Below are positions 44,637 through 45,939 of a stretch of DNA of 64,000 nucleotides, in pieces. The stretch is from Achromobacter sp. B7 (lineage in GTDB: Bacteria; Pseudomonadota; Gammaproteobacteria; Burkholderiales; Burkholderiaceae_B), in assembly GCF_003600685.1 (NCBI RefSeq), contig NZ_CP032084.1:4712001-4776000 (forward strand), read 5' to 3'. A program made the translations under genes and the position numbers. Positions within the stretch are counted from its first letter, which is position 1, and each line of letters opens with the position of its first letter. The notes under the pieces are model-generated. The model did not search any database. It saw nothing but the letters and a program-made list of their open reading frames with translations, and was not told the DNA's origin.

Positions 44637-45761
44637 ATGTTCAAACGCACTTTACGGCAGCACGCGCTGGCCGCCGCGCTGGCCCTGACGGCCGCGGTCG
44701 CCGCGGGATGGCTCGCCTGGCATACGCTGGCATTGAAAACAGAACCCGTGCCCGCCGCCGCCCCGGGCATCTACATTCCCAACCTGGGCAATACGCTGCA
44801 AGAACAGACGCGCAACCTGTCGCGCCTGAGCCAGGCACTGCGCACCGGCGACCGGGTGGTGATCCTGGGGTCTTCCGAGCTGACCAGCAACGACCTGCGC
44901 TTTGTCCCCTACCGCTATCTGGCCGACGAGTTACAGATGCCGGTGCTGGCCTACGGCCATTCGGGCTTCCAGTCCTTGGGAATGCAGCTAGTGCTGGCTG
45001 CACTGGCCGATGACCTGTCGCCCGCCTCGCGCGTGGTGGTGATGTTGTCGCCCGGATGGTTCGACGGCGATGGCGGGCTGGGCGCTGACGAATTCAAGGA
45101 ACACGCCAACCCGCTGCTGCCCCGGCTGCTCAAGCAACCCGAAGGCCGCGCCGAACTGGCACGCTGGCTGCGCGACAAAGGTGATGCGGGCGTGGCTTGG
45201 TCGATGATGACCGAGCAGGCCTATGTTTTCAGGCAACGGCTGGTCGACCTGTGGACACCTGCCCATGCCGCCCCCGCCCCCGAGCGGGAACGCGAGGGCC
45301 CCGCTGCTGCTGCCCGCGTGGTGGATTGGGACGCACTGGCCGAAGAGGCGCAACGCGCCGAGCAGGACTTGATGACCGGCAACCGCTACGCGGTGCGGGA
45401 CGACTTCTTCAACAAATACCTGCGGACCCTTCCCGAGGGCGGCAAAACCGCGTACCTGCCGCAACCCCTGACAGGCCGCGACGAACTGCGCGAACTGACC
45501 GCCCTGATGGCGCTGCTGCACCAGCATGGCGTGAATGCGCTGTTTGTCATGCAGCCGCTGCACCCGATGGTCTTCAAGGACCTGAACCGTTTCCAGCCCG
45601 TGCAAGAGGAAGTGGGCGCCCTGTGCCGGCGCTATGCGATGACGTGCATGGATATGTACGACGCCCCCTTTGAAGTGGGCATGCTGCGCGACGTGCAGCA
45701 CCTGGGCGAGCTCGGCTGGCTGCGCGTGAACCAGAAGATTGCCCAGGTGTTCCGGCCATGA
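44637..45761 (+). CDS. dltD: DltD-like acyl transferase
   Basis: A 374-residue protein with one N-terminal membrane anchor (about residues 10-32) and an extracytoplasmic SGNH/DltD domain. The catalytic Ser lies in LGSSEL (residues 78-82), and Asp352 and His355 in DVQHLGELGW complete the triad. GHSGFQSLGMQL and LSPGWFD are further DltD hallmarks. In Gram-positives DltD transfers D-alanine to teichoic acid; in Bordetella dlt-like (dra) genes modify the surface. Here dltA, dltB and dltC are absent from the neighbourhood; the next gene is a DltX-like microprotein. Confidence 0.85.
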   Translation: MFKRTLRQHALAAALALTAAVAAGWLAWHTLALKTEPVPAAAPGIYIPNLGNTLQEQTRNLSRLSQALRTGDRVVILGSSELTSNDLRFVPYRYLADELQMPVLAYGHSGFQSLGMQLVLAALADDLSPASRVVVMLSPGWFDGDGGLGADEFKEHANPLLPRLLKQPEGRAELARWLRDKGDAGVAWSMMTEQAYVFRQRLVDLWTPAHAAPAPEREREGPAAAARVVDWDALAEEAQRAEQDLMTGNRYAVRDDFFNKYLRTLPEGGKTAYLPQPLTGRDELRELTALMALLHQHGVNALFVMQPLHPMVFKDLNRFQPVQEEVGALCRRYAMTCMDMYDAPFEVGMLRDVQHLGELGWLRVNQKIAQVFRP

Positions 45762-45813
45762 CCCCTGCCCGCCCCGCCCCTGGCCAGACCTTTCCCGCTG
45801 GAGGGATGCCGCA

Positions 45814-45939
45814 ATGAAAAGAACGCTGTGGCTGTGCCTGCTTTACCTCGGCGTGTTCGCCGTGCTGCTGATCCAGGCGGACACCTCCGCCAATCTGGGC
45901 AAGCCGATGGAGATCGAGTTCCAGTATTCGAAATTCTGA
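45814..45939 (+). CDS. 41-residue DltX-like membrane microprotein
   Basis: A frame of 41 residues starting M-K-R-T-L-W after a good GGAGGG, 52 bp behind dltD. It has one membrane helix (LWLCLLYLGVFAVLLI) and ends in EFQYSKF. The last six residues fit F-x-Y-x-x-F, like the FIYNEF terminus of DltX, the small partner in dlt operons whose C-terminal Tyr is proposed to carry the D-alanyl group. Size, topology, C-terminus and neighbour all agree. The in-frame upstream extension to 45739 is rejected as it lacks a ribosome site. Confidence 0.7.
   Translation: MKRTLWLCLLYLGVFAVLLIQADTSANLGKPMEIEFQYSKF

Follow-up and report, generated by a model that had tools for sequence, protein, structure and literature searches.

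The question raised by this locus was why a gene for a DltD-type transferase and a very small open reading frame stand together between mogA and pit, apart from any dltA, dltB or dltC. The window that we analysed is the whole stretch of 64,000 nucleotides in which they lie, corresponding to positions 4,712,001-4,776,000 of a single-contig Achromobacter genome of 6,236,552 bases (G000). The original prediction had read the two genes as a DltD and a DltX-like microprotein, acting as a stand-alone relay or surviving as a remnant. We call their products DltD2 (D2) and X2.

The Pfam DltD model (PF04914) matched DltD2 with 154.5 bits (E 6.1e-45) against a cut-off of 22.7. The length of 374 residues, the GSSEL block and the D352/H355 pair had been predicted with exact coordinates, and G78-S79-S80-E81-L82, D352 and H355 showed no variation among 38 aligned sequences. 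The GSSEL and D-x-x-H motifs of the solved DltD 6o93 also lined up with those of DltD2. The AlphaFold model of DltD2 (mean pLDDT 87.9) had a long N-terminal helix at residues 3-31, and its best 12 Foldseek matches in the PDB were DltD chains, with TM-scores of 0.56-0.60; the rmsd was high, at 6-10 Å. Both profile and fold mark DltD2 as a DltD, and the model suggests an N-terminal membrane helix followed by a presumed periplasmic catalytic domain. The LTA-specific DltD equivalog of NCBIfam (TIGR04092) gave 92.3 bits, under its cut-off of 150. The flanking genes were as predicted: the mogA side was recognised by the NCBIfam molybdopterin adenylyltransferase model with 323.6 bits, and the best match on the pit side was PitA with 674.8 bits, under its 800-bit cut-off. 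An Rfam scan of the whole 64,000-nt window returned no matches.

The start codon of X2 lies 52 bp downstream of the DltD2 stop codon, and the predicted length of X2, its single helix and its EFQYSKF end were likewise exact. With 41 residues, one hydrophobic stretch and a C-terminal FQYSKF, X2 has the short single-helix form and the F-x-Y-x-x-F end of DltX. The results of our six-frame scan of the window showed that this motif precedes one of 2207 stop codons, namely that of X2. The expectation that such a gene is easily missed by ORF callers was only partly right, for public sources do annotate X2, as 'hypothetical protein'; the Gram-negative X protein carries no name in the databases that we searched. 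A search of the PDB with a profile of X gave no matches. The features of the window pair, and of the operon described below, are collected in Table 1.

Table 1. Features of the dltD2-X2 locus (window positions) and of the dlt operon of the same genome (positions prefixed L002).
Feature	Position	Strand	Basis
DltD2, DltD-type SGNH transferase, 374 aa	44637..45761	+	Pfam DltD, AlphaFold, Foldseek
GSSEL block, residues 78-82, presumed nucleophile Ser79	44868..44882	+	alignment
D352-x-x-H355 of presumed catalytic triad	45690..45701	+	alignment
GGAGGG, likely ribosome-binding site of X2, before its ATG	45800..45805	+	sequence reading only
X2, single-helix microprotein, 41 aa, MKRTLWLCLLYLGVFAVLLIQADTSANLGKPMEIEFQYSKF	45814..45939	+	conservation, pN/pS, paralogue X1
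X2-type linker D-T-(S/A)-A-N, residues 23-27, after hydrophobic stretch	45880..45894	+	table of X sequences
C-terminal hexapeptide F-Q-Y-S-K-F of X2	45919..45936	+	motif scan, conservation
Tyr38 of X2, presumed acyl-carrying residue	45925-45927	+	motif position
DltC, 79 aa, phosphopantetheine (PP-binding) domain	L002:4751-4990	+	
DltD1, between dltC and X1		+	Pfam DltD, E 8e-59
X1, 50 aa, MKFFRKDGAGRRFFWHLCLYIGVILVFVLQAQPTTGSGGPIKVEFQYQQF, between dltD1 and dltB		+	ends EFQYQQF
DltB, MBOAT, 375 aa	L002:6312-7439	+	
DltA, AMP-binding, 481 aa	L002:7456-8901	+	

The statement that the pair occurs without dltA, dltB or dltC proved correct for the neighbourhood but not for the genome. A complete dltC-D1-X1-B-A operon of the dra type is present on the same chromosome (L002:4751-8901, C1 about 580,750-584,900), and the DltA, DltB and DltC of a complete Dlt pathway are all encoded in the window genome. 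The distant MBOAT that had been postulated was also found, since our search of this genome detected one MBOAT, at C1:582,674, which is the DltB of the operon (209 bits with LTA_dltB, under the equivalog cut-off of 375). The C-terminal end of this DltB is LYVFSGRSPI; it does not carry the shuttle hexapeptide that is fused to the MBOAT in PatA, and DltB should therefore need an X in trans. X1 is encoded with the dlt genes of the operon while X2 is encoded with dltD2 alone. Searched against Pfam and NCBIfam at E values up to 10, X1 gave a weak PsbL match (E 0.39) and no other.

Comparison of the two D-X units showed that DltD2 and DltD1 are 42% identical over 340 columns, and that X1 and X2 have a common layout consisting of a basic start, one hydrophobic stretch, a linker containing G-x-P and a final E-F-Q-Y-x-x-F, the C-terminal hexapeptides differing at two positions. 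Because of this shared layout and identity, the window pair is, as judged from the sequences, a dispersed paralogue of the D-X unit of the operon. Our table of 30 X sequences contained 13 X1 of Achromobacter, Bordetella and g9, six X1 of other genera, two Bordetella X2 and nine of ten Achromobacter X2 (one was left out), with the Klebsiella X kept outside it. The residues common to all 30 were L10, Y11, G13, G29, P31, E35, Y38 and F41, whereas D-T-(S/A)-A-N at residues 23-27 was found in the X2 of Achromobacter and Bordetella and was missing from the X1 compared.

The likeness of the X2 end to that of Gram-positive DltX was confirmed, as the three Gram-positive DltX that we compared end in FIYNEF, which has the same pattern as FQYSKF. 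The HMM search that the original prediction had called for was negative: the Pfam DltX model (PF12459), at E values up to 10, matched neither X2 nor seven other Gram-negative X, while it gave 57-73 bits on the three Gram-positive controls, and a scan of the window genome with this model returned just two matches, both elsewhere and below the cut-off. The hhalign comparison of 10 X with the three Gram-positive DltX gave a probability of 1.1%, a weak negative because the alignments were thin. Little can be read from the lack of NCBIfam matches to X, for a genuine Gram-positive DltX received none either. Membership of X in the Pfam DltX family was ruled out by the Pfam search, the genome scan and hhalign. 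X resembles DltX in architecture, motif and context, a likeness of analogy in which a claim of homology is not supported. The Gram-positive Dlt system (dltXABCD; DltX PF12459, DltD PF04914) also uses a single-helix microprotein of about 40-50 residues with an F-x-Y-x-x-F end, encoded with the dlt genes and used together with DltA, DltB and DltC. It differs from the system described here in gene order, which is dltC-D-X-B-A in the operon, and in the second D-X unit, which lies far from that operon. The acceptor in Achromobacter, which has a Gram-negative envelope, is presumably not teichoic acid, unlike that of Gram-positive Dlt.

We then surveyed the co-occurrence of D and X. X2 adjoined DltD2 in 19 of the 19 loci matched by the window DltD, all from Achromobacter, and in all 40 D2 loci of a second set (38/38 in Achromobacter and 2/2 in Bordetella); the two sets overlap, as at least 3 of the 19 loci fall in genomes of the set of 40. 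The start of X2 overlaps the stop of D2 by four bases in 8 of the 38 Achromobacter loci, including G137 and G181, where the automated start call is a later Met, and in both Bordetella loci. Genomes were drawn evenly from larger groups, except for the genus set of 43 Achromobacter. In this set DltD1 was present in 43/43 genomes and DltD2 in 38/43; it was not found in G045, G098, G171, G182 and G178, the last of which is only 57% complete. The X profile search found two X in each D2-bearing genome and one in each of the other five, giving 81 X for 81 DltD. The survey of 151 genomes of the family found X in exactly the 19 with DltD (26 X and 26 DltD) and in none of the other 132; the profile itself derived from 10 X sequences, mostly of genomes that were then searched, and for those the concordance is partly by construction. 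In the wider sets DltD was rare, being found in 4 of 399 genomes of the order, three of them Achromobacter, and in 1 of 369 genomes of the class, the window's own. The fourth genome of the order set (G399) has a DltD, with no X found, so Gram-negative DltD does not always come with X. This genome belongs to another Burkholderiales family, and its DltD (locus L081) is followed by a frame that resembles an aminotransferase by eye, perhaps as part of a different polymer system.

All 40 D2-bearing genomes (38 of 43 Achromobacter and two of the four DltD-bearing genomes of the Bordetella group) also had DltD1 with an adjoining MBOAT, a co-occurrence that is confined to related genera and is statistically weak for that reason. 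Of the 38 Achromobacter genomes with D2, 15 had DltB as the sole MBOAT detected, that of the window among them. In 25 of the 43 Achromobacter genomes (for example G161, G175 and G158) a second MBOAT was encoded apart from the dlt operon, its frame being mostly 528-529 residues long.

The pN/pS ratio (uncorrected Nei-Gojobori, summed over pairs of Achromobacter copies) was 0.110 for X2 (38 copies) and 0.198 for D2 (37 of 38 copies, one of other length being dropped), compared with 0.062 for X1 and 0.083 for D1 (32 of 43 copies each). As had been predicted, the Tyr and both Phe of the hexapeptide were conserved: Tyr38 was found in 38/38 Achromobacter copies of X2, encoded by TAT in 23 and TAC in 15, and Phe36 and Phe41 were each present in 38/38, while position 39 was Ser in 30 copies and Gln in 8. 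The start codon was present in all 38 copies, one of them having GTG (G166). The small ORF of X2 is under purifying selection, and from their sequences neither D2 nor X2 looks like a relic.

In the DltD tree, D2 of Achromobacter and D2 of Bordetella formed one clade (96/90), apart from the DltD1 of both genera; the long branches beside this clade (Klebsiella and P0079) were flagged as unsafe. In the 19 Achromobacter loci, pit flanked the pair in 19/19 and mogA was on the other side in the 18/18 that reached that far. By comparison, mogA and pit were directly adjacent, with no pair between them, in G045, G098, G171, G182 and four Bordetella-group genomes. D2 and X2 were missing together wherever this site was empty, and the mogA-pit spacer of G182 retained both flanks. 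The D2-X2 pair of Bordetella was found at another site, near ORFs named by eye as pheS/pheT-like and transporter genes. The tree of dltD1-locus DNA (35 rows, 32 of them Achromobacter) placed G045 and G171 as the first branches, G171 with weak support (94.5/53), and nested G098 and G182, both lacking the pair, among D2-bearing genomes. Taken together, the empty sites, the other location in Bordetella and the nesting of G098 and G182 suggest that D2-X2 moves and is lost as a unit; since two nested genomes do without it, the pair is dispensable.

We favour, with somewhat better than even confidence, the reading that DltD2-X2 is a functional second terminal branch drawing D-alanine from a shared DltA/C/B trunk. 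In Gram-positives, according to an extract of PMC12148441, DltB transfers the D-Ala of DltC to the Tyr in the hexapeptide of DltX, from which it passes to the Ser of DltD; other MBOAT-SGNH systems have the hexapeptide as part of the MBOAT itself. To the gene anatomy, conservation, co-inheritance of D2 and X2, complete operon and single detected MBOAT of the window genome, which we observed here, the favoured reading adds chemical steps, a pairing of X2 with DltB and an acceptor, all of which we infer. DltA would charge DltC with D-alanine and the single DltB would carry the D-alanine across the inner membrane. The C-terminal F-x-Y-x-x-F of X2, like that of X1, would insert into DltB, and Tyr38 would accept D-alanine and pass the acyl group to Ser79 of DltD2, which would esterify an envelope acceptor. 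By analogy with DltX, X2 probably hands D-alanine over to the transferase in this way, and two shuttle-transferase pairs would thus be fed by one trunk encoded elsewhere on the chromosome. As DltB is the sole MBOAT detected in 15 D2-bearing Achromobacter genomes, it is the one MBOAT candidate for charging X2 there. The shared donor may be served by the residues common to all X of the table, and the two transferases by the linkers specific to each type. DltD2 would probably serve a second acceptor or condition, because it has diverged strongly from DltD1 and its evolution is faster; the faster evolution (0.198 versus 0.083) could also reflect weaker constraint. As the pair is split from the operon in the genome, its co-expression with the operon is not guaranteed. 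A more tentative extension, which we regard as possible though on balance doubtful, is that X1-DltD1 and X2-DltD2 compete for one donor site on DltB and feed two envelope acceptors, the microprotein acting as a destination switch.

Several other explanations were weighed against this second-branch reading. The pair might be a dosage copy that shares both the function and the acceptor of DltD1-X1, adding only capacity or a different promoter; the retained catalytic residues and shuttle motif would suit this, and one trunk would supply both pairs, but the 42% identity of D2 to D1, the separate clade with Bordetella D2 and the X2-specific linker exceed what a simple dosage copy needs, and we consider it unlikely, if still deserving of attention. 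The stand-alone relay of the original prediction would have X2-DltD2 take its acyl group from a donor other than DltB, such as an AT3 protein or an unrecognised transporter. The physical separation of the pair from the operon and the second MBOAT of 25 Achromobacter genomes point that way, whereas DltB is the sole MBOAT detected in the window genome and in 14 further Achromobacter genomes with D2, and the X2 hexapeptide differs so little from that of the X1 of the DltB operon. With a complete dlt operon in the same genome, including a paralogue of X2, this relay seems improbable.

X2 might instead be a scaffold that tethers DltD2 to DltB or regulates DltB, its Tyr38 bearing no acyl group. Part of a structural study of DltB (PMC11035591) considers that the DltD and DltX of Gram-positives may be regulators of DltB, and we found no report of an acyl-Tyr for any Gram-negative X in the open-licence literature. 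However, Tyr38 and both Phe never vary among the copies read, and an extract of PMC12148441 reports D-Ala transfer to the DltX Tyr and an acyl-Tyr demonstrated for PatA; we judge the scaffold very improbable. A decaying duplicate with no present function, the remnant of the original prediction, would account for the faster evolution of D2 and for the absence of the pair from G098 and G182. It is hardly credible beside the retention of both ORFs in 38/43 genomes, the invariant catalytic and shuttle residues, pN/pS values well below 1 that speak of purifying selection, and the exact concordance of D and X copies, X2 being always missing where D2 is missing. That the 41-codon frame is not a gene at all has a negligible chance of being right: the frame is short, has no name and falls into no curated family, but it lies beside D2 in 40/40 loci, shows purifying selection, keeps its start codon in all 38 Achromobacter copies and has a paralogue in the operon. 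A chance ORF is refuted by this pattern of conservation.

Another close system is the dra locus of Bordetella (BP2987-BP2991), an operon of the same kind from a sister genus, which is said in part of PMC9858536 to place D-alanine in the outer membrane or a component of it; that account, in the part available, names no microprotein and no second D-X pair. The four genomes of the Bordetella group that we read had dltD1 followed by X1 and then by the MBOAT gene. Peptidoglycan O-acetylation by PatA/PatB, another MBOAT-SGNH system, works by the same shuttle chemistry, through the Tyr of a C-terminal hexapeptide (PMC12148441, in extract); PatA carries this hexapeptide fused to its MBOAT chain and has acetyl-CoA as the donor, whereas here it is on a separate protein and DltB has none.

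The enterobacterial plasmids NZ_CP041250.1 and NZ_CP071862.1 also have, between dltD and the gene of the MBOAT, a reading frame for a 40-residue 'hypothetical protein' with the end HFEYQKF. They differ from the chromosome studied here in having a complete dltD-X-B-A-C set by insertion sequences, with one D-X unit in the stretch read. These plasmid operons, of Klebsiella electrica and Enterobacter cloacae, were read at L128:2529-6581 and L129:2529-6581, and they show that the Gram-negative X is not confined to the family of the window. Dlt genes of Gram-negatives were already known, Dickeya and Pectobacterium being named in part of PMC5541007. In the open-licence literature we found no report of a Gram-negative DltX and no paper on the dlt operon of Achromobacter, and the sole match for DltX with Bordetella means double-lung transplantation (DLTx).

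To this our analysis adds an unrecognised shuttle-like protein in Gram-negative dlt operons together with a dispersed D-X paralogue, of which most Achromobacter carry a copy far from the operon for D-alanine modification of the envelope. The accounts that we consulted assign the separate shuttle microprotein to Gram-positive Dlt, and in part of a 2025 paper (PMC12148441) other MBOAT-SGNH pathways are said to lack one. The dispersed paralogue suggests that a shuttle and its transferase can be copied together, as a portable module for the exit of the acyl group, with no second copy of the donor trunk. In that case a 41-residue protein and its partner could decide where D-alanine goes, and this would give a handle on the acceptor or acceptors of D-alanine in the envelopes of Bordetella and Achromobacter.

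Three further observations concern DltD and DltB relatives outside the loci described above. Some sequences (P0074, P0075, named A. ruhlandii, and P0096, named A. xylosoxidans) shared just 48-50% identity with DltD2 of the window; in the DltD tree two of them, P0074 and P0075, clustered with the Bordetella hinzii type, a type that occurred in 0/38 of the Achromobacter D2 loci read. DltD relatives of 373-400 residues with 30-42% identity to DltD2 were also collected (P0097-P0112), one of them from a Bacillota MAG. A plasmid of Ligilactobacillus murinus (L133:3516-4924) carries a lone dltB right after the gene of the bacteriocin bactofencin A and, in the stretch shown, lacks dltA, dltC and dltD, which makes it the mirror case of the window pair.
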